NCBI GenBank assembly: GCA_945861345.1
Contig: CAMATX010000023.1
Location: 1 to 33,517 of the forward strand
DNA: 33,517 bases
DNA from: Comamonas sp. lk
GTDB taxonomy: Bacteria > Pseudomonadota > Gammaproteobacteria > Burkholderiales > Burkholderiaceae_C
Direction of reading: 5' to 3'
In this document: piece by piece, positions 3,001 through 20,167 of the stretch
Layout of the letters: every line of letters starts with the position of its first letter
Position numbering within the stretch: position 1 is the stretch's first letter
Translations under genes and position numbers: made by a program
Notes under the pieces: generated by a model
The model's database searches: none
Told to the model about the DNA's origin: nothing
Seen by the model: the letters and a program-made list of their open reading frames with translations, nothing else

Positions 3001-3647
3001 CGCCCACCTCGCTGGACGCGCTGGTAGAGCACCGCGCTACTTTTTTGACCGGCTACCAAAACGCGGCCTACGCGCAAAGCTATCGCGACTTCGTGGCCAA
3101 GGTGCGCCGCGCCGAAGGCGCCCTGGGCGCCCAAGCCGATGCCAAAGAGCTTCCGCTAAGCAGCACCGTGGCGCGCTACCTGTTCAAGCTGATGGCCTAC
3201 AAAGACGAATACGAAGTGGCGCGTCTGCACAGCGACCCTGCGTTTCGCGAAAAAATCACTGCGATGTTTGAAGGCGACTACCAAGTCAACTACCACCTGG
3301 CGCCGCCACTCTTGGCGAAGAAGGATGAGAAAGGCCGCCTCATCAAGCAACGCTTTGGCCCCAAGATGGGCTTGGGCTTTCGCCTGCTGGCGCCGCTCAA
3401 GGTCTTGCGCGGCACGGCGCTAGACATCTTTGGCTACAGCGAAGAGCGCCAAGGCGAGCGCGCCCTGGTGCAGAACTACATGCAGACGCTGGAACGCATG
3501 CTGACGCACTTGAGCCCCAGCACCCTGCCCGACGCGCTGCGCTTTGCCAAACTGCCCGAAGAGATTCGCGGCTATGGGCATGTGAAGGCGCGGCATATTG
3601 CGGCGGTAAAACCTGGCTGGGAAGGGTTGGGTGGGAAATTGCCTTAA
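48..3647 (+). CDS. Indolepyruvate ferredoxin oxidoreductase, fused alpha and gamma subunits
   Basis: Oxidatively decarboxylates arylpyruvates (indolepyruvate, phenylpyruvate) to aryl-acetyl-CoA with thiamine diphosphate, passing electrons to ferredoxin; cytoplasmic, amino-acid catabolism. The 1199 aa chain shows, in order: an N-terminal pyrimidine-binding domain (about 30-210), a TPP-binding domain with NLGDGTYFHSG near residue 530, a ferredoxin-like cysteine cluster (CEGCGDCGVQSNC and following CxxxxxCxxxxxC, about 674-718), the gamma-type domain beginning with GVGGTGVITIG near 768, and a C-terminal DUF6537-like region. Length is normal for the one-piece proteobacterial enzyme. AGGAG (34-38) sits 9 nt before the ATG. 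The frame stays open back to base 3, but the Shine-Dalgarno and family start favour 48. Codon use is GC-rich like most of the window. No partner gene is visible downstream; the metal-receptor cassette follows. Confidence 0.95.
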   Translation: MNAPLHPDQLRAASVTLDDKYTQTTGQAFMSGIHALVRLPMMQRVRDLAAGKNTAGLISGYRGSPLGSYDQSLAKEKKRLLEHHVHFQPGVNEELAATALWGTQQLGFAPPGSNKYDGVFGIWYGKGPGVDRCSDVFKHANMAGTTPWGGVIAVAGDDHVSKSSTAAHQSDHIFKACGTPVFFPASVQDILDLGVHAFAMSRYAGVWAGMKTIQEIVESSAAVDVDPHRVKIVMPTDFEMPAGGVHIRWPDGALDQEARLFDTKWYAALAYVRANRLNHNVIEGPNDRFGLMASGKAFNDTRQALLDLGLDDATCRRVGIRLHKVAVVWPLEAQLTREFASGLQEILVIEEKRQVIEYQLKEELYHWRADVRPRVVGKFTVSDDAASPYGIGGEWSGSEPSANRLLRANADLTPAMIARAIAQRLTALGVDADVRARMDVQLAILDAKEKSMQALALGAPLAERQPWFCSGCPHNTSTRVPEGSRAMAGIGCHFMTLWMDRSTTGFTQMGGEGVPWVGQQPFVNDAHIFANLGDGTYFHSGLLAVRQSIAAGVNITYKILYNDAVAMTGGQQIGERAEGHSVIQIAQSMRAEGAQRIVVVTDEPQKYDGVQGLPEGVAVEHRDSLDAVQRVMREIKGTTVIIYDQTCATEKRRRRKRGTMVDPATRVVINELVCEGCGDCGVQSNCVSVEPLETELGRKRRINQSTCNKDISCVKGFCPSFVTVEGGKLRKKKSSAQSASSGPAAGLPEPAVFDLQQAHDGVWGLVVAGVGGTGVITIGQLLGVAAHIEGKGIVTQDAGGMAQKGGATWSHVLISESQDAIRTTRVGMACADLVIGCDPIVTAGKETSLRLRAGRSRVVLNSHSQPTAAFVQNANWSNPGEACIAAIAATLQEPQSLGCVDAEAIATELLGDSIFTNPVLLGYAWQKGWIPLGQDALLQAMALNAVAVEKNQAAFRWGRLAAHDPAAVQRNLLPAQTVQLVRKQAPTSLDALVEHRATFLTGYQNAAYAQSYRDFVAKVRRAEGALGAQADAKELPLSSTVARYLFKLMAYKDEYEVARLHSDPAFREKITAMFEGDYQVNYHLAPPLLAKKDEKGRLIKQRFGPKMGLGFRLLAPLKVLRGTALDIFGYSEERQGERALVQNYMQTLERMLTHLSPSTLPDALRFAKLPEEIRGYGHVKARHIAAVKPGWEGLGGKLP

Positions 3648-3717
3648 GGCGGCGCCTTTCGCAGCCTATTGCTTCATGCGCCTATAGCTGCCACCACCAC
3701 CATGGCCGCAAGCGACC

Positions 3718-3731
3718 CAAAACGCGTTTTG
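3718..3731. repeat. 14-bp perfect palindrome upstream of the receptor cassette
   Basis: CAAAACGCGTTTTG is a perfect palindrome in the 175-bp gap between the oxidoreductase and the first cassette gene, about 90 bp before that gene. It could be an operator or a chance palindrome; there is no T-tract, so it is not a terminator. It does not match the AT-rich Zur box I would expect for zinc uptake genes. Confidence 0.4.
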
Positions 3732-3822
3732 AAGCAGTCCGATCCGCCGCTGTAAAGCGGTCATCTATGCGCAGGCTGTAGATGATACATTTGCACATGG
3801 CAAAACTCAATGAGGCGATCAA

Positions 3823-4065
3823 ATGAAGAAGGCGCTACTGGTGCTAGTTACCCTTGCGCTAACTGTTGCCGTTGCGATAGCGGCTGTAACTGATAAACAA
3901 ACCAAGGATGACATTGCCCGGCACCGTGCAATCGCTACGGCCCACGAGGCCGCAGCCAAATGCCGCGAGGCAGGTACGGTGGAAGAAGTGTGCAATGCCC
4001 AACTGCAGGCCGCCTGCAAGGGACTGGCAATCGGCAAGTTTTGTGGCATGAAGCACCAGCACTAA
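3823..4065 (+). CDS. Small exported Cys/His protein, first gene of the receptor cassette
   Basis: 80 aa protein I cannot name. Residues 1-21 form a typical cleavable signal peptide (MKKA, then a Val/Leu/Ala core ending AIAA), so the product is probably periplasmic. The mature part is about 60 residues, helical and charged, with four cysteines (roughly residues 47, 56, 64 and 73) and a C-terminus KHQH. Two disulfides or a small metal site are both plausible. A GAGG Shine-Dalgarno lies 9 nt before the ATG. The next small gene starts 9 bp after the stop and the ZnuD-like receptor follows, so a shared role in metal acquisition is inferred from context. Codon use and GC content look lower than in the flanking housekeeping genes. 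Confidence 0.75.
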   Translation: MKKALLVLVTLALTVAVAIAAVTDKQTKDDIARHRAIATAHEAAAKCREAGTVEEVCNAQLQAACKGLAIGKFCGMKHQH

Positions 4066-4068
4066 ACT
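4063..4068 (+). promoter_or_regulatory. Possible -10 box 6 nt before the 4075 ATG
   Basis: TAAACT (4 of 6 to TATAAT) lies exactly 6 nt before the ATG, overlapping the stop codon of the preceding gene, and no Shine-Dalgarno is visible. It is the weakest member of a spacing pattern seen at other starts here. Translational coupling to the gene 9 bp upstream is an equally good explanation. Confidence 0.25.
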
Positions 4069-4074
4069 ATCCTC

Positions 4075-4449
4075 ATGGTGTTGTTGAAATTTATGGCAAA
4101 GGGTAAATGGCATATTGGAGTGCTGGCCTTGGCATTGGTGCTTGCGCAAAGCATCGGCTTGATCCATCGCATTGCACACGCTCCTTTACTCACCAATGAC
4201 CATGCCCAACGAGTTGTAGATGCGCCAGACAGCCTTGTCGAGCTTCTATTTGTTGATCATCATGACGGCAATGGCAATGCTAAGTGCCACCTGTTTGACC
4301 AAAGCAACCACCTCGATGGCCTCTGCGATATCTCTGCGGTGGTGTTACCTACCCAATTTGCTGCGGCCATCCCAGCCGCGTTTGCGGGCCTGTTCACGGT
4401 CCGGTGGTTAGCGGCTTTTCACGCCCGCGGCCCTCCCGCTCTCCGTTGA
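4075..4449 (+). CDS. Small His-rich membrane-anchored/exported protein, DUF2946-like
   Basis: 124 aa (118 if the in-frame ATG at 4093 is used). A hydrophobic segment at about residues 15-32 is a signal anchor or signal peptide. The middle carries several histidines (HRIAH, DHHDGN) and a CHLFDQSNHLDGL stretch; a second hydrophobic segment precedes a C-terminal HARGPPALR. A small exported protein with Cys/His motifs and an RGPP-type tail resembles the loosely defined DUF2946-type proteins often found beside metal-related TonB receptors; this is recalled, not searched. It sits between the 80 aa Cys protein and the receptor. Function unknown; periplasmic metal binding or a role in receptor assembly is inference only. 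Confidence 0.65.
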   Translation: MVLLKFMAKGKWHIGVLALALVLAQSIGLIHRIAHAPLLTNDHAQRVVDAPDSLVELLFVDHHDGNGNAKCHLFDQSNHLDGLCDISAVVLPTQFAAAIPAAFAGLFTVRWLAAFHARGPPALR

Positions 4450-4527
4450 TTTTCTGAGTCAGTCATTTCCGCCTCGCTCTCAGCGCAGGCGGTGTTGTGC
4501 TTTGCACGTTTCAACGGAATTCTTACT

Positions 4528-6531
4528 ATGAAAAAATCTTCATTGGCGCTTCTAGCGCTGGGCACCCTGTCGTCTGCCCAGATCTTTGCGCAAAATGCCC
4601 CTGCTTCCACATTGATACCGGTCACCGTCACAGGTAATCCGCTTGGCGCTACCGATTTGATCGCACCTGCCGCACAATATTCCGGCAATGAGTTGCTGTT
4701 TCGCTCGCAAACCACGCTGGGCGAAACGCTGGACGGTACGCCTGGCGTTTCCAGTACTTACTTCGGGCCAAACGCCAGCCGCCCGATCATCCGCGGACTG
4801 GACGGCGACCGCGTGCGGGTGCTGAACAACGGTGGCTCGGTCGCCGATGTATCCAGCCTGAGCTATGACCATGCGGTTACCGCTGATCCTTTGAGCGTGG
4901 AGCGCGTAGAGGTATTGCGCGGTCCGGGTGCGCTGTTGTACGGCGGTAACGCCGTGGGCGGTGTCGTTAATGTGCTGGACAGCCGCATCCCGCGCGAACC
5001 GTTGTTCGATGCAAAGGGCGGGGCCAGTGGAAAGGCTGATTTGGCCATAGCCAGTGGCAATACCGAGCGAAGCGCGGCTGCCATGCTCGACGCTGGAAGC
5101 GACCGTTTTGCATTGCATGCCGATGCGTTTCAACGCACGACCGCCGATGTCGCTGTGCCCGTCCACTTAGCGTGCAGCAAGCCCGGTGCGCCGTCCATGG
5201 CCCGAACCATTTGCAACTCGTCCAGCAAAACTCGTGGTGCTGCGGTTGGTGGCTCCGTATTTTTTTCCAGAGGCTACCTGGGCGTGTCTGCCAGCCAATT
5301 TGTTAGTAACTATGGCACTGTGGCCGAAGACGAGGTGACTATCGACATGAAGTCCCAACGCTACGCCATCGATGGTGCGTTGCATGGCCTCTCCGGTCCG
5401 TTGCAAAGTGTCAAGGTCCACCTCGGCCAAAGTGACTACCATCACACCGAGTTTGTAGGCGATATGTCCGGTACCGTATTCATGAGCAGCGAGCATGACT
5501 TGCGCGTGGAGGCTCGGCATGCACAGTGGGCTGGGCTGGATGGGGTAATTGGCTTACAGGCCGGAACTTCCAACTTCTCCGCAGCCGGTGAGGAGGCATT
5601 TGCGCCCTATAGCCAAACCCGACAGGTTGCCTTATTTGCGTATGAGGAGAAGCCGTTTTCGTGGGGACGCTTGAGCGGCGGGGCGCGGGTGGAGCAGGTG
5701 GAGGTGCAGTCCTATGGCAACCCGGATATGAACCGGTTTTTGCTTGGAACGCGTAGCTTCCAACCCGGTAGCTATGCCCTGGGCGCGCTTTGGAACCTTA
5801 CGCCCGCGTGGCAGCTGACCACCAACCTGGCCTATAGCGAACGTGCCCCCAAAGACTATGAGCTTTTCGCCAACGGACCCCATGTCGCCACCAACGCATA
5901 TGAGGTAGGCGACGCTCGCTTGCGACTGGAACGCTCCACCAACCTGGACGTGGGCGCGCAGTGGAAAGTTGGCGGGAACCGGTTTGCCATCAGTGCGTTT
6001 TTGAACCAGTTTGACAACTACATAACTCAAATTGCAACAGATGCCCAGGAGGATGGCATGGATGTATATGCTTACACCCAGGTACGTGCCCGCCTTTCGG
6101 GATTGGAGGCTAGTGCCAACTTGCGCCTGTTGCAGGGCGCCCAAACGTTGGATCTGGAAATGCGCGGTGACACTGTGCGCGCGCGAAACACTGACACTGG
6201 CGAGGCATTACCGAGGATTGCCCCTTTGCGCCTAGGTGCAACCTTGGTCTGGGCGCAAGGTCAATGGAACGCAAGGCTGGGCGCCAGCCACTCAGCTGCG
6301 CAAACCGATGTTCCCACGGGACAAATTAGCACGGACTCTTACACCTTGTGGAATGCCTCAGCGGGGTACACCATGAAGGCCAGCACAACACAAATGCTCT
6401 GGTACGTCAAACTCGACAACATCACCGACGCGCTAGCGTATTCGGCAAGCTCCGTGCTCACGCAAACCGTGCCGGGCAAAGCGCCGCTGCCGGGCCGAAC
6501 GTTGAAGTTCGGAGTGCGCTGGACCTTCTGA
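4528..6531 (+). CDS. TonB-dependent outer-membrane receptor, ZnuD-like
   Basis: 667 aa outer-membrane receptor for energised import of a metal or metal complex. It has a signal peptide (MKKSSLALLALGTLSSAQIFAQ), a plug domain with RPIIRGLDGDRVRVLNNG and VERVEVLRGPGALLYGGNAVGGVVNVLD (about 85-155), and a beta-barrel ending in aromatic Phe (VRWTF). The segments HVATNAYEVGDARLRLERS, VHLGQSDYHHTEFVGD and WYVKLDNITDALAYS closely resemble remembered Neisseria ZnuD sequence, so zinc is the best guess. The His/Cys-rich extracellular loop of ZnuD is almost absent (see findings). ATG at 4528 is chosen over 4492 because it begins the signal peptide and has GGA upstream. No clear Zur box was found. Codon use is less GC-biased than in the neighbours, suggesting a transferred or fast-evolving cassette. 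Confidence 0.9.
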   Translation: MKKSSLALLALGTLSSAQIFAQNAPASTLIPVTVTGNPLGATDLIAPAAQYSGNELLFRSQTTLGETLDGTPGVSSTYFGPNASRPIIRGLDGDRVRVLNNGGSVADVSSLSYDHAVTADPLSVERVEVLRGPGALLYGGNAVGGVVNVLDSRIPREPLFDAKGGASGKADLAIASGNTERSAAAMLDAGSDRFALHADAFQRTTADVAVPVHLACSKPGAPSMARTICNSSSKTRGAAVGGSVFFSRGYLGVSASQFVSNYGTVAEDEVTIDMKSQRYAIDGALHGLSGPLQSVKVHLGQSDYHHTEFVGDMSGTVFMSSEHDLRVEARHAQWAGLDGVIGLQAGTSNFSAAGEEAFAPYSQTRQVALFAYEEKPFSWGRLSGGARVEQVEVQSYGNPDMNRFLLGTRSFQPGSYALGALWNLTPAWQLTTNLAYSERAPKDYELFANGPHVATNAYEVGDARLRLERSTNLDVGAQWKVGGNRFAISAFLNQFDNYITQIATDAQEDGMDVYAYTQVRARLSGLEASANLRLLQGAQTLDLEMRGDTVRARNTDTGEALPRIAPLRLGATLVWAQGQWNARLGASHSAAQTDVPTGQISTDSYTLWNASAGYTMKASTTQMLWYVKLDNITDALAYSASSVLTQTVPGKAPLPGRTLKFGVRWTF

Positions 6532-6556
6532 TAGGAAGTTAAAGCGCATAATTTTT

Positions 6557-6587
6557 GGTTGGGACGGAATGCAACTCCGGCCCAACC
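6557..6587. terminator. Hairpin between convergent receptor gene and hrcA
   Basis: Arms GGTTGGG (6557-6563) and CCCAACC (6581-6587) enclose a second stem CGGA/TCCG with a short loop, giving about 11 pairs in the 107-bp gap between two convergent genes. A T-run lies on its left side only, so on neither strand is the hairpin followed by U's. It may still stop or stabilise transcripts. Confidence 0.3.
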
Positions 6588-6638
6588 CACTTGAAAATGG
6601 CGCAGCCATAAAGCGGGCACATGGATGAGATTCGCGGC

Positions 6639-7643
6639 TTATTTCTGGTGACTAAGCGCGTTGCTCACCAGCTTGGCCGTGATATCCACGATTTGGATCA
6701 TGCGGTCGTAGGCCATGCGGGTGGGGCCGATCACGCCTAAGGTGCCGACCACTTTGCCGTCCACTTCGTAAGGCGCGCTGACCACCGACAGCTCTTCAAA
6801 CGGCACCACCTGGCTTTCGCCGCCAATGTAAATGCGCACGCCCTCGGCGCGCCCGGCGATGTCCAGGAGGCGCATGATTTGCGCTTTTTGCTCAAACAGT
6901 TCAAAAGCGCGGCGCAGATTGCCCATGTCACTGGAAAAGTCGCTGAGCTTGAGCAAATTGCGCTCGCCAGAAATCACCACCTCGTCCTGGTCTTGCGACA
7001 TGGCCTCGGAATTGACCTTGACGGCCGCCGCCATCAGCCCGGCAATTTCCGAGCGCAGGCTTTCCACCTCCGATTGCAAGCGGATGCGCACCTGATCGAT
7101 GTCCAGGCCTACGTAATGGTGGTTCAGAAAATTGGCCGCCTCCACCAGTTGCGCCTGTGTGTAATCGGCCTCGGTGAACAGGATGCGGTTTTGCACATCG
7201 CCATCGGGCGAGACGATGATGACCAGCACCCGCCGCTCGGACAGGCGCAAAAACTCCATGTGCCTAAAGGCGCTGCTGCGCCGTGGCGTCATCACCACGC
7301 CGACAAACTGCGACAGGTTGGAGAGCAAATTGGCCGCATTGGAGATCACTTTTTGCGGCTGGTCGGGCGCCAGGCTGTGCGCGCCAAACTGCTGGGGCTG
7401 CACGGTGAGCATGGTGTCCACGAACAGGCGGTAGCCGCGCGCCGTAGGAATGCGCCCGGCCGAGGTGTGGGGGCTGACAATCAGGCCCAGCTCCTCCAGG
7501 TCCGACATGACGTTGCGGATGGTGGCCGGCGACAATTCCAGCCCGGATGCCTTAGACAAAGTGCGGCTACCCACCGGTTGGCCGTCAGCAATGTAGCGTT
7601 CAACCAGCGCTTTGAGTAATAACTTGGAGCGATCATCGAGCAT
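6639..7643 (-). CDS. hrcA: Heat-inducible transcription repressor HrcA
   Basis: Represses class I heat-shock genes (groESL, dnaK-grpE) by binding the CIRCE operator, with GroEL as feedback effector. The 334 aa product has the N-terminal winged helix ([19 protein letters not shown], then [17 protein letters not shown] and [20 protein letters not shown], residues 3-75) followed by the HrcA GAF-like/dimerisation region. Length is normal. ATG at 7643 is used; a TTG one codon upstream is unnecessary. No Shine-Dalgarno precedes it; a TAAAAT box ends 6 nt before the ATG, suggesting a leaderless mRNA. It is divergent from nadK with only 28 bp between the two ATGs. No CIRCE inverted repeat is visible in the gap, and no chaperone gene is in the window. 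Confidence 0.96.
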
Positions 7644-7671: not shown

Positions 7672-8580
7672 ATGAACCCCCGCCTGAACCCGCAGTTCCG
7701 CCAGGTTGCCCTGACCGGCAAATACCTCTCCAGCCACGCGCCGGCGGCTATTGCCGCCTCGCGCGCTACGCTCGACGAGATAGCCCATTTCCTGATGGAC
7801 CAGGGCTGCGAAGTAGTGATCGAGGCCGATACCGCCGCCAAACTCGGCCTAAACGCCTACACCGCCCTGGACATCGAGTCCATCGGCCGCCAGTGCGGCC
7901 TGTGCCTGGTGGTCGGCGGTGACGGCACCATGCTGGGCGTGGGCCGGCGTCTGGCGCCCTTTAAGGTGCCGCTTATTGGTATCAACCAGGGCCGGTTGGG
8001 TTTTATTACCGATATTGCGCTGGAGCGCTACGCCCAGACCCTGGCGCCCATGCTCGCGGGCGAGTACGAGGTGGACGACCGCAGCCTCATGCAGGCACAG
8101 GTCATGCGCAGCGGGCAATGCGTGTTCTCAGCGCTGGCGCTCAATGACGTGGTGGTCAACCGTGGCGCCACCTCGGGCATGGTGGAGTTGCGCGTCGAGG
8201 TGGACGGCCACTTTGTGGCCAGCCAGCGCGCCGACGGGCTGATTATTGCGACGCCCACCGGCTCGACCGCCTACGCGCTCTCGGCCGGCGGGCCCATGCT
8301 GCACCCTTCCACGCCGGGCTGGGTGCTGGTGCCGATTGCGCCACACACCTTGTCCAACCGGCCGATTGTGCTGTCGCACACCTCGGAGATCGCGATCGAA
8401 ATCGTCTCGGGGCGCGACGCCAGCGCCAATTTTGATATGCAGTCGCTGGCCACGCTGATGCACGGCGACCGCATCGTGGTGCGCCGCTCGGAGCACCAAG
8501 CGCGCTTTTTACACCCCCGGGGCTGGACCTACTTTGATACGCTGCGCCGCAAACTGCACTGGAACGAGGGGGGGAGTTAA
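7672..8580 (+). CDS. nadK: NAD kinase
   Basis: Phosphorylates NAD+ to NADP+ using ATP or polyphosphate; cytoplasmic. The 302 aa product has the GGDGTMLG motif (about residues 81-88), the [13 protein letters not shown] segment, and the glycine-rich [16 protein letters not shown] segment that forms the NAD-binding site. ATG at 7672 is preferred to an in-frame TTG at 7666. No Shine-Dalgarno is present and a -10-like box ends 6 nt upstream. It is divergent from hrcA and only 3 bp ahead of recN, a common beta/gammaproteobacterial arrangement, so nadK, recN and rapZ are probably one transcript. Confidence 0.96.
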
Positions 8581-16299: not shown

Positions 16300-16396
16300 A
16301 ATTTTTTTAACGGCACTGCCAGACGGTCTGAAGAAGCTCTGAAATCGCCCCTTTTTGCGCGCAGCCTCACACACCAACTTCACCTCCTTGAGCACC

Positions 16397-17374
16397 ATGC
16401 AGGCCCCCGATACCCCCGATTTCATGGTTTTTACCGGCAATGCCAACCCTGTGTTGGCATCCGAGGTTGCGGGTAATCTGGGCATCAGTCTGGGCGCGGC
16501 CAGTGTGGGCCGCTTCTCCGACGGTGAGGTGACGGTCGAAATCAACCAAAACGTGCGTGCGCGCGACGTCTTTGTGCTGCAAAGCACCTGCGCCCCGACC
16601 AATGAGAACCTGATGGAGCTCTTGATCATGGTCGATGCGCTCAAGCGCGCCTCGGCCGAGCGCATCAGCGCCGTCATCCCGTATTTCGGCTACGCGCGCC
16701 AGGACCGCCGCCCGCGCTCGACACGCGTGCCGATTACGGCCAAAGTGGTGGCCAATATGCTGCAGGCCGCTGGCGTTTCCAGCGTGCTGACCATGGACTT
16801 GCATGCCGACCAAATCCAGGGCTTTTTTGACATCCCGGTGGACAATATTTACGCCTCGCCCGTGCTTTTGGGCGATTTGCGTCAGAAAAACTACGAAGAC
16901 CTGATCGTGGTCTCGCCCGATGTGGGTGGCGTGGTGCGCGCCCGTGCGCTGGCCAAGCAGCTCAACTGCGACCTGGCCATCATCGACAAACGCCGCCCCC
17001 GGGCCAATGTCAGCGAAGTCATGCATGTGATCGGCGAGATCGAAGGGCGCAACTGCGTCATCATGGACGACATGATCGACACCGCCGGCACCTTGGTCAA
17101 AGCGGCCGAAGTGCTCAAGATGCGCGGCGCCAAAAAAGTCTATGCCTACTGCACGCACCCGATTTTTTCCGGACCGGCCATTGAGCGCATCACCAACGGC
17201 GACGCGCTGGACGAGGTGGTGGTTACCAACACCATCCCATTGAGCGTAGTAGCCGCCAATTGCCAAAAAATTCGCCAACTCACCGTGGCACCGCTGATCG
17301 CGCAAACGATTATGCGCATCGCCAAGGGGGAGTCGGTCATGAGTTTGTTTTCGGACCAGAACAATTTGTTCTGA
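16397..17374 (+). CDS. prs: Ribose-phosphate pyrophosphokinase
   Basis: Makes PRPP from ribose 5-phosphate and ATP, feeding purine, pyrimidine, NAD, histidine and tryptophan synthesis. The 325 aa product has the [20 protein letters not shown] region, the ATP-site [27 protein letters not shown], the [19 protein letters not shown] segment and the PRPP loop [17 protein letters not shown] (about 221-237). ATG at 16397 gives a short N-terminal extension (MQAPDTPDF) before MVFTGNANP as in related Burkholderiales; ATG 16424 is an alternative. No strong Shine-Dalgarno. Downstream rplY is 97 bp away and probably co-transcribed. Confidence 0.97.
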
Positions 17375-17389
17375 CGCAAACAAAAAGCC

Positions 17390-17419
17390 GGTGCGCTGCG
17401 GCCTCAAGCCAGGCGCACC
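17390..17419. other. Hairpin between prs and rplY
   Basis: Arms GGTGCGC (17390-17396) and GCGCACC (17413-17419) with a small inner GGC/GCC stem. No T-tract follows, so it is unlikely to terminate; it could stabilise the prs end or act in the rplY leader. Confidence 0.3.
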
Positions 17420-17471
17420 ATATTGAAACCGGAGTCACACTGGTCGCGGTGGACTCTTACAGGAGTAAGTT

Positions 17472-18104
17472 ATGAAATTTGTCGCTTTTGAGCGCGCTAA
17501 GCAGGGCACGGGTGCGAGCCGCCGTCTCCGCATCACCGGTCGCACGCCCGGTATTGTGTATGGTGGTACGGCCGAGCCTACAGCCATCGAACTGGACCAC
17601 AACGCACTGTGGCACGCCATCAAAAAAGAAGCTTTCCACGCCTCTATTTTGGACATGGAACTCAATGGCAGCGAAAGCAAAGTGCTGTTGCGCAATGTAC
17701 AAATGCACCCCTTCAAGCAATTGATTTTGCACGTGGACTTCCAACGTGTCGAAGCCAACACCAAGCTGCAAATGAAAGTGCCACTGCACTTTAGCGGCGA
17801 AGAAAGTTCTCCTGCCGTCAAGCTTGACGCCTGCTTGATCAACCACATCGTCAACGAGCTGGAGGTGGCCTGCCTGCCGGCAGACCTGCCCGAGTTCATC
17901 AATGTGGACCTGAGCAACCTGAAAAAAGGCACCTCCCTGCACGTCAACGACATGGTTTTGCCCAAGGGCGTGACCGCCGTGACCCGTGGCAAGGAAAATC
18001 CGGTGATCGTCTCGGTGGTAACGCCTGTGGCCGAAGTGATCGAAGCGCCCGCAGCGGACGCCGCGCCTGCTAAAGGCAAAGCCGCAGCCAAGACCAAAAA
18101 ATAA
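17472..18104 (+). CDS. rplY: 50S ribosomal protein L25 / general stress protein Ctc
   Basis: Binds 5S rRNA in the large subunit. The 210 aa long form has the N-terminal L25 domain (about 1-92, with [19 protein letters not shown]) and the C-terminal TL5/CTC beta domain (about 100-190), ending in an Ala/Lys-rich tail. It is longer than E. coli L25 (94 aa) but normal for the CTC class. A strong AGGAG Shine-Dalgarno (17460-17464) precedes the ATG. It follows prs, and a rho-independent terminator lies 26 bp after the stop. Confidence 0.96.
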
Positions 18105-18130
18105 GGCCCTGTTGGCGCCTTGGCAAAACG

Positions 18131-18153
18131 GGCCCGCGCAAGCGGGCCTTTTT
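18131..18153 (+). terminator. Rho-independent terminator after rplY
   Basis: Stem GGCCCGC (18131-18137) / GCGGGCC (18142-18148) with a GCAA tetraloop, followed by TTTTT. An A-run precedes the stem. It ends the prs-rplY transcript before pth and is the clearest intrinsic terminator in the window. Confidence 0.9.
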
Positions 18154-18224
18154 GCTGACGCGCCGGCATTGGTCTACCATGGCGCACCGGCTGCGATGCC
18201 AGTGCGCTTTAGCAAAGTCCGAGC

Positions 18225-18869
18225 ATGATCAAACTATGGGTTGGCCTGGGAAACCCGGGCCCTGAGTACGAGGCAACCCGCCACAACGCGGGCTTTTGGT
18301 TTATCGACGGCCTGGCTCGGCTATGGAAAACGCCCTTGCAGTTGGAGCGCAATTACTACGGCCTGGTCGCGCGCACGAGTTTTCAGGGCGAAAGCGTCTT
18401 GCTGCTGCAGCCGCAGACCTATATGAACCTGTCGGGTAAGTCGGTGGGCGCATTGGCGCGGTTTTTCAAAATCAACCCAGACCAAATTCTGGTCGCCCAT
18501 GACGAGTTGGATTTGCCACCCGGCCAGGCCAAGCTCAAATTTGGCGGCAGCCATGCTGGCCACAACGGCTTGCGCGACATCCACGCCCAGCTGGGTACGG
18601 GCGACTACTGGCGCCTGCGTCTGGGCATAGGCCATCCCGGCGACAAGGCAGAAGTGGTGCATTGGGTCTTAAAAAAGCCGGTCCTGGACCACCGCATCGC
18701 GCTGGACCAATGCATTGACCGGGCGCTGGGCGCCGTTCCCGCCCTGATGGCCGGCGACACGCACAAAGCGATGCTGCAAATTCACACAAGTACGCCGCCC
18801 CGGCCTAAACTCGCCAAACCCAAGGAGTCAGAGGCCAGGCCCACGCAGCCCCCCGACTTAGGCGCCTGA
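18225..18869 (+). CDS. pth: Peptidyl-tRNA hydrolase
   Basis: Cleaves peptidyl-tRNA released from stalled ribosomes, recycling tRNA; cytoplasmic. The 214 aa product has the active-site residues N10 (GLGNPGPEY), H20 (ATRHNAGF) and D93 ([10 protein letters not shown]), the [12 protein letters not shown] motif and the [13 protein letters not shown] segment. About 20 residues after the normal end ([24 protein letters not shown]) form a disordered Pro/Lys-rich tail, longer than in E. coli. It lies beyond the rplY terminator, so it needs its own promoter in the 70-bp gap; no clear hexamers were recognised there. Confidence 0.97.
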
Positions 18870-18924
18870 GCCACGGCGGCGCAGAGCGCCGGGCTCGGTT
18901 TGTTGTTTGCATCAGGGAGGAACC

Positions 18925-19395
18925 ATGCGTTTTGTGCCACTTGGCGGGCTTGTGCTCGCGTCATTGATCTCTTGCGCTGCTGTGTCAGCGCAAACCTTGT
19001 ATCGCTGCGGCAACGAGTACCGCGATACCCCGTGCCCCGGTGGCAAGGCCGTCGATACCCAGGACCCGCGCACGCCCGAGCAGCGTGCGCAAACCCTGCA
19101 AGCCAGCGCCAAAGAGGCCGCGTTGGCGGAAAAAATGGAGAACACGCGCCTGGCGGCTGAGGCCACGGCCGCCAAACGCCTGCAAGCGCAGGCCCAGCTG
19201 GCCGCCGCGCAGGCCGCCAAAGAAGAGGCCGCTGCCAAAGCAGCCCAACAAGCGGCTGACAAAGCCCAGGCCCCGCATGCGCACAAAGCGCAAAACGCCA
19301 AAAACCAAAAGTCGGCCTCTAGCGACATCCTTACGGTACGTCTGCCCAAACCACCCAAACCGCCCAAGAACGCGGCCAGCGCCAAAGCGCCGTAG
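18925..19395 (+). CDS. Exported DUF4124-domain protein with coiled-coil tail
   Basis: 156 aa with a signal peptide (MRFVPLGGLVLASLISCAAVSA) followed by the short DUF4124 motif QTLYRCGNEYRDTPCPGG, in which two cysteines probably form a disulfide. The remainder is an Ala/Lys/Glu/Gln-rich helix, likely coiled coil (about residues 60-120), then a Pro/Lys-rich tail with PKPPKPPKN. Probably periplasmic; molecular function unknown for this family. A strong GGGAGG Shine-Dalgarno (18915-18920) fixes the ATG at 18925. It stands alone between pth and the convergent ferredoxin gene. Confidence 0.85.
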   Translation: MRFVPLGGLVLASLISCAAVSAQTLYRCGNEYRDTPCPGGKAVDTQDPRTPEQRAQTLQASAKEAALAEKMENTRLAAEATAAKRLQAQAQLAAAQAAKEEAAAKAAQQAADKAQAPHAHKAQNAKNQKSASSDILTVRLPKPPKPPKNAASAKAP

Positions 19396-19417
19396 CGCCG
19401 TAGCTCAGGCCCGTGGT

Positions 19418-20167
<750 letters not shown>

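Follow-up and report, generated by a model that had tools for sequence, protein, structure and literature searches.

A small conserved ORF ahead of a ZnuD-like receptor in Comamonas as a candidate zinc-type arrest-peptide leader

The window (the whole stretch of DNA analysed here, 33,517 nt from Comamonas sp. lk) encodes two small proteins, P1 (80 amino acids) and P2 (124 amino acids), directly ahead of a TonB-dependent receptor (Table 1), with 9 nt between the P1 stop and the P2 start and 78 nt between the P2 stop and the receptor ATG. The upstream neighbor of P1 we take to be a 1199-aa indolepyruvate ferredoxin oxidoreductase-like gene, and the receptor is presumably followed by homologues of hrcA, nadK, and recN. 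An earlier note on this DNA had described two small Cys/His ORFs before the receptor, and both are real and conserved, with the four cysteines of P1 (C47, C57, C65, and C74), its KHQH tail, and the HRIAH, DHHD, and CHLFDQ motifs of P2 all present. P2 also has a hydrophobic N-terminal helix and a Pro-Pro pair at residues 120-121, and the N terminus of P1 resembles a signal peptide by eye. Neither protein matches a Pfam or NCBIfam family over its cut-off; weak matches of P1 to Pfam Conotoxin and DUF6520 lay under the cut-off and were rejected. A scan of window positions 3500-6700 for sigma-70 promoters and terminators returned nothing above shuffled sequences.

Table 1. Features of the P1-P2-receptor locus, in window coordinates.
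Feature	Position	Strand	Remarks
P1, exported-type small protein	3823..4065	+	conserved CX9C ... CX8C, GMKHxH tail
P2, candidate arrest-peptide leader ORF, CruR/CutF-like	4075..4449	+	hydrophobic N terminus, H31xxxH35, C71xxxD75, A117-R-G-P-P121
C71-H-L-F-D75 codons, proposed metal site (C-x3-D)	4285..4299	+	46 residues before R118
R118-G-P-P121 codons, RGPP arrest-type motif	4426..4437	+	three residues ahead of the P2 stop
H1 5' arm, TCCGTTGA	4442..4449	+	final P2 codons and stop; complementary to the receptor start region
H2 inner hairpin, CCGCCTCGCT...AGCGCAGGCGG, between the H1 arms	4469..4492	+	thermodynamic prediction
H1 3' arm, TCAACGGA	4511..4518	+	9 nt ahead of the receptor ATG
ZnuD-like TonB-dependent receptor, 667 aa	4528..6531	+	domain and structure matches

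The three genes had also been thought to differ from their neighbors in codon use. This holds against the six flanking genes, with GC3 values of 0.593, 0.560, and 0.656 for P1, P2, and the receptor versus 0.746-0.846, but it does not set them apart within the window, where three other long ORFs at 16367-19792 are as low (0.594-0.657) and form a second compositionally odd stretch.

The receptor carries Plug and barrel domains over their cut-offs. ZnuD is both its best named model (NCBIfam, 330 bits) and its best solved relative (4rdr, E 4e-59), while the TonB-copper model scores far lower at 67 bits. The resemblance to ZnuD has its limits, since the model's cut-off of 950 bits is not reached and the window receptor is without a His-rich loop. 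The lack of a metal-rich loop, which the earlier note had offered as a reason for the receptor to need partners, is correct as an observation (no 20-residue stretch has more than 3 His), but it is ordinary for this family, because 12 relatives measured in the same way have at most 2.

Relatives of P2 were found in 45 of 200 genomes of the same bacterial family (own genome counted) with a single sequence and in 101 with a profile. With receptors counted at E up to 1e-80 (92 of the 200 genomes), P2 and the receptor occur together in 81 genomes and are adjacent in every one (Fisher p=1.9e-24); P2 occurs in 20 further genomes that lack a receptor at that threshold, and in 18 of them it is followed immediately by a more distant receptor of this type, bringing to 99 of 101 the genomes in which a ZnuD-like receptor directly follows it. 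The more distant receptor behind P2 is split between two frames in locus L170, and P2 lies at a contig edge in genome G104. The proposed link between P2 and ZnuD-like receptors is borne out. A single P2 locus with enough flanking DNA has no receptor behind it (L175 in genome G082, 3987-4523) and is followed by other ABC-type ORFs. Conversely, a receptor without a P2 match occurs in eleven of the 200 genomes searched. ORFs preceding two such P2-less receptors (G011:C8:249556-249855 and G030:C19:72413-72643) match DUF2946, one over and one just under the cut-off, and these sequences suggest that P2 and DUF2946 may form a continuum.

P1 follows a different pattern. Across the 200 genomes its presence is independent of both the receptor (Fisher p=0.52) and P2 (Fisher p=0.87), and it is tied instead to an ABC permease of the P1-cluster type (counted at E up to 1e-60, 63 of 200 genomes), the two occurring together in 46 genomes and adjacent in 44 (Fisher p=1.5e-23). 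The expected co-occurrence with ZnuD-like receptors therefore applies to P2 and not to P1, whose family occurs independently of them, and the idea of P1 and P2 as one unit is not upheld. Where both small proteins are present they are frequently near one another, within 3 kb in 23 of 26 genomes, and of the 34 genomes with both P2 and the permease, 29 have P2 no more than 5 kb downstream of the permease. P1 stands directly before P2 in five of the 200 genomes, and likewise in three near relatives (loci L095, L145, and L155) that keep a Fur-like gene before P1 in the order regulator-P1-P2-receptor. The upstream flanks of these three loci gave no blastn match among themselves, and the two downstream flanks compared share a 40-nt match, which suggests, at the level of sequence, that the regulator-P1-P2-receptor row has been relocated, perhaps by transfer. 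We conclude that P1 and P2 belong to two modules and are probably not paired metal-binding partners.

The usual setting of P1 is a cluster in the order ABC ATPase, MacB/FtsX permease, P1, DUF3299. Among the best 80 of 360 named loci with P1 relatives, a sample that leans to close relatives because only the best were kept, P1 adjoins the ATPase and/or the MacB/FtsX-type permease in 75 and a DUF3299 gene is present in 72 (within 600 nt in 68); P2 is also present in 16 of these best 80 loci, and 13 of the 16 include a receptor ORF that is complete. Relatives of P1 occur in 53 of the 200 genomes, and in A1 and A3 neither the four Cys nor the two His of the tail vary. They are rarer outside the bacterial family: a sample of 300 genomes from the order had 15 with P1, and 4 of these 15 are of the same family. 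The P1 model consists of a long and a short helix (mean pLDDT 84) and has no significant fold match (best E 2.0), and no solved relative was found for the protein (best E 0.46). Some clusters depart from the standard arrangement: loci L103, L128, L142, and L152 have ∼0.9 to 4.5 kb of extra DNA between P1 and DUF3299 and are otherwise standard, and L153 has two DUF3299 genes in succession between P1 and P2 (10272-11331).

An ATPase, a MacB-like permease, and a DUF3299 protein are components of the zinc-regulated ZrgABCDE system of Vibrio and of PA4063-PA4066 in Pseudomonas (PMC9817125, PMC9820375, PMC9431628). The P1 cluster resembles these in combining the three genes, which are under zinc regulation in those organisms, and differs in having P1 between permease and DUF3299, a feature with no mention in the parts of PMC9817125 and PMC9820375 available to us. 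P1, we infer, serves a Zrg-like zinc ABC importer as a small accessory protein in the periplasm. In the Comamonas genome the ATPase, permease, and DUF3299 genes lie on another contig (C50; L070:5365-7958) without P1, with three bases between the permease stop and the DUF3299 start; the DUF3299 protein itself is just under the family cut-off (20.8-21 versus 22 bits) and matched no solved structure at E up to 0.1. P1 has probably parted from its Zrg-like importer in this genome and joined the P2-receptor pair. The C50 permease also contains a long His/Asp stretch (HDTDHDHHDDHDDHDTEE) that is a candidate metal site.

The surroundings of the P1 cluster in relatives have a zinc character. In the 75 P1 loci with at least 1 kb of upstream sequence, a Fur-like gene lies directly upstream of the cluster in 55 and divergent znu genes in 45, and locus L091 has beside its P1 cluster a ZnuA (E 1.2e-90, over the Pfam cut-off), an ABC-3 permease, and an ATPase over the NCBIfam cut-off of the zinc model AztA (225.8 versus 220 bits). 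The label "Fur-like" is based on this neighborhood and on sub-threshold matches (FUR at E 0.0085-0.3 in 3 of 5 proteins, with weak PerR/Irr matches). The 160 nt before the Fur-like gene contain GCAA-N5-TTGC in 62 of 62 loci of L090-L169, against a shuffled mean of 0.15, and TTGC-N13-GCAA in 37 of the same 62; judged from sequence, the former is a probable operator between the Fur-like gene and the znu genes. It is missing before P1 in the window (3648-3830), where only the reversed order TTGC-N5-GCAA occurs (3791-3803). A GCAA-N5-TTGC with a different core lies near the start of the C50 ATPase (about 7908-7920). Visual inspection of the DNA ahead of P1, in the window and in three near relatives, showed no conserved palindrome, and a GTTATANTATAAC-type palindrome was rejected as a general candidate, as it showed no excess in 69 loci, where the stretch is mostly coding sequence of the Fur-like gene, and matched 10 of 12 positions in five related loci. 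The Comamonas genome (94% complete) gave no ZnuA and no match to the P1-linked Fur-like gene, by loss or through an assembly gap, and has one other FUR protein, so that it is the relatives and the receptor family that point to zinc. With that basis, the metal context previously proposed holds for both P1 and P2 and is of the zinc type.

The P2 protein itself has an unusual pattern of conservation. All 101 distinct P2 sequences have an R-x-PP motif close to the C terminus (50 ARGPP, 50 ARAPP, and 1 PRGPP), followed by exactly three residues in 67, as in the copper-responsive protein CruR, and a C-x3-D motif is found in 100 of 101, with a C-to-R spacing of 46 residues in 81, 47 in 15, and 45 in 4. 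As the set was collected with a profile that includes both motifs, their presence is partly selected, and the constancy of the spacing less so. Average identity between C and R is just 21% (81 sequences), and the HxxxH motif stands at distances of 20 to 108 from C. None of the 101 has CXXC at the place of C-x3-D. For comparison, DUF2946 proteins of the same bacterial family gave 28 spacings between CXXC and the R-x-PP that follows it (from 27 of 30 loci), and 24 of these are 44-46 residues. Relationship between the two families is faint: the window P2 scores 9.0 bits against Pfam DUF2946 (cut-off 23.7), 12 of 26 P2 family members match DUF2946 at E up to 10 (best 0.13, sub-threshold), and a profile-profile comparison aligns exactly the metal-motif and R-x-PP ends, if weakly (E 0.0011, probability 20). 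The P2 model is of low confidence (pLDDT 57).

The RNA that joins P2 to the receptor is predicted to form a helix. In the window, TCCGTTGA pairs with TCAACGGA and encloses the hairpin H2, in a fold mildly better than shuffled sequences (z -1.9 and -2.3), and hairpins like H2 were read by eye in relatives. We assigned receptor starts in 112 loci by an ad hoc score of closeness, start codon, and Shine-Dalgarno pairing, which gave a median P2-receptor gap of 129.5 nt. Complementarity of at least 8 nt between the region of the P2 stop and the last 35 nt ahead of the receptor start was present in 19 of the 112 loci (21 with the segment placed 10 nt further upstream), compared with 0-7 for same-size P2 segments at the other 22 positions. 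The signal is concentrated where ATG starts lie at gaps below 110 nt, with 14 of 41 loci at the P2 stop versus 0-2 for segments farther upstream, the perfect 8-nt stretch being missing in the other 27. After dereplication, 12 of 39 real short-gap pairs had it, versus a mean of 2.1 and a maximum of 4 for mismatched pairs. Pairing is kept though the sequences differ (CGTTCGTTGAAA/TTTCAACGAACG, CTCGCTGAAA/TTTCAGCGAG, TTCCGCTGA/TCAGCGGAA, CTTTGATT/AATCAAAG, and CATTCTCTG/CAGAGAATG).

When all 41 short-gap loci were aligned without regard to structure, 72.2% of cells were paired versus 64.7% in shuffles and at most 48.7% in slid registers, 52 cells were changed on both sides versus 25.8, and the covariation score was 0.251 versus 0.161, each value being reached in 0 of 500 shuffles, counts that are not probabilities because the loci are related. 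Other measures were less favorable: two of five pair-count measures failed to beat the shuffles (232 of 500 and 51 of 500), a slide of +1 exceeded the real register for pairs changed on both sides (11 versus 8), and alignment pairs 44-160 and 50-155 fail in 24 and 21 of the 41 rows. A subset of 30 rows, picked after viewing for visible pairing, was 79.2% paired, and RNAalifold gave no consensus on this 30-row alignment; our main figures are those for all 41. Duplex energies over 36 nt showed no peak at the P2 stop, and real pairs did beat mismatched pairs, but since the profile along P2 is flat, these energies are explained by base composition and are uninformative.

A stalled ribosome would be placed to act on this helix. 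With P120 in the P site, we take the front edge of the ribosome to lie at about 4447-4448, covering most of the H1 5' arm, a position that would fit the common three-residue tail after R-x-PP. We modeled the arrested ribosome as a mask of 31 nt and computed the accessibility of positions -20 to +3 of the receptor, using a mask one footprint upstream as control. Mean predicted accessibility in the short-gap loci rose from 0.410 to 0.552 with the arrested footprint and to 0.415 with the control, and the gain exceeded 0.1 in 29 of 41 versus 2 of 41 loci (p=2.5e-8). The window's own gain is modest (0.52 to 0.61). At gaps of 110-299 nt the footprint effect is absent (6 of 42 versus 1 of 42, p=0.41), and a different mechanism, such as the Rho-based one of CruR, may operate there.

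The R-x-PP end, the fixed spacing, the variable middle, the low-confidence fold, and the covarying helix together point to P2 as a regulatory leader ORF, and they tell against its being chiefly a metal-binding stand-in for a receptor loop, as had been suggested. We consider it likely that P2 controls translation of the ZnuD-like receptor as a zinc-type RGPP-arrest switch. We infer that a ribosome translating P2 would arrest at the C-terminal RGPP, with its front edge in the P2 stop codon and over the H1 5' arm; the arm, once covered, could not pair with the receptor start region, and the receptor would be translated. A metal, most likely zinc, would bind C71-x3-D75 and neighboring His of the nascent chain, a site that at 46 residues from the arrest point would be just outside the exit tunnel. 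Binding would relieve the arrest, the ribosome would leave, the helix would re-form, and the receptor would be switched off. That metal shuts the receptor off, and not on, is suggested by the precedent of CruR and by the receptor being an uptake gene, and zinc is indicated as the metal by the receptor family and by the genes neighboring the relatives.

Several known systems come close to this proposal. CruR (Bordetella pertussis bp2923, DUF2946) is a copper-responsive upstream regulator ahead of a receptor that arrests at RAPP, is relieved by copper at a CXXC 45 residues upstream, needs RAPP for expression and CXXC for metal control, and is predicted to be poorly structured (PMC9426467). P2 resembles it as a small exported-type ORF before a TonB-dependent receptor, poorly structured and with a metal motif at a fixed spacing of ∼45 residues upstream. 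It differs in having C-x3-D instead of CXXC, in lying under the DUF2946 cut-off, and in heading ZnuD-like and not copper receptors; moreover, other genes often precede P2 in its row, as P1 does in the window, and whereas CruR works through Rho, the short-gap P2 loci show a helix that covers the start of the receptor. For that feature the closer comparison is CutF of Rhodobacter capsulatus, a nascent exported protein that opens a stem-loop over the ribosome-binding site of the next gene (PMC9973294). CutF shares with P2 the C-terminal PP and an RNA structure over the next ribosome-binding site that is opened by the ribosome (in P2 a computed feature of short-gap loci), but it responds to copper and heads a multicopper oxidase, and in P2 the 5' arm of the helix consists of its own last codons and stop. 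A genome-wide survey reports that RGPP gives the strongest arrest in several contexts, that in the CruR arrest the P and A sites are occupied by the two Pro codons, and that arrest at RGPP/RAPP is shown in other proteins (PMC12992588). Its subjects share with P2 the end motif, a TonB-dependent receptor downstream, and a small protein of secretory type (putatively so in P2), and RAPP/RGPP small proteins upstream of such receptors are therefore already known as a class; the word "zinc" is absent from its main text, and no zinc class is singled out in the passages available to us. In the titles and abstract openings of a mainly open-access set of journal papers, we found no zinc leader ORF of the P2 kind.

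The conserved Cys and His residues and N-terminal hydrophobic segments of both P1 and P2, together with the adjacency of P2 to the receptor in 99 of 101 genomes, could also be read as the earlier note read them, with the two proteins acting as extracytoplasmic metal-binding partners that supply the ligand function missing from the receptor loops. We think this very unlikely, as the strongest conservation in P2 lies in the R-x-PP end and its distance to the Cys, not in a His-rich middle, the P2 model is poorly structured, P1 is tied to the ABC importer and not to the receptor, and the RNA complementarity at the stop codon is left without a role. That complementarity would be explained by plain translational coupling, in which any ribosome at the P2 stop opens the helix sited there and R-x-PP merely slows termination, no metal being sensed. 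Such coupling leaves both the C-x3-D at fixed spacing (100 of 101) and the R-x-PP (101 of 101) unexplained, and we give it little credence.

More of the proposed switch is retained if P2 is an arrest leader that senses copper or another metal, as do its characterized copper-sensing relatives CruR and CutF (PMC9426467, PMC9973294); the main text of the CutF study does not contain the word "zinc" (PMC9973294). The copper motif CXXC is nevertheless absent from that place in all 101 P2 sequences, with C-x3-D in its stead in 100, the receptors resemble ZnuD far more than the copper receptor model (330 versus 67 bits), and zinc genes lie in the neighborhood of relatives, which makes this reading improbable. 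It is likewise unlikely, if somewhat easier to entertain, that P2 exposes or hides a Rho site as CruR does, transcription stopping before the receptor and the helix being secondary. The CruR precedent, the median gap of 129.5 nt, and the lack of a helix effect at 110-299 nt would suit such a mechanism; against it, the short-gap pairing like that in the window covers the receptor start region and covaries. Rho action would in any case be compatible with the arrest switch and not exclusive of it.

Beyond this locus, we tentatively suggest, at a confidence somewhat short of even, that P2 could represent the founding type of a zinc-sensing arrest peptide, whose chain reads zinc through C-x3-D (plus His) at a fixed distance from RGPP/RAPP and toggles a covarying helix formed by its own last codons and the receptor start, beside a Zur-type repressor or perhaps, in this genome, which yielded neither the linked Fur-like gene nor its conserved site, instead of one. 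The discoverers of CruR pointed to the lack of any described riboswitch for copper or zinc as a possible reason for the evolution of protein-based copper control (PMC9426467). If our reading of P2 is true, it would provide a post-transcriptional zinc switch; as a counterpart for zinc in which the RNA switch can be seen, it would carry metal sensing by nascent chains over to a second metal at the top of the series. The system would be compact and easily mutated, with one motif for arrest, one for metal, and one helix as output. P1, for its part, would add a conserved, unnamed component to Zrg-like zinc importers, and P2 would explain a class of small unnamed proteins ahead of zinc-type receptors in this bacterial family.
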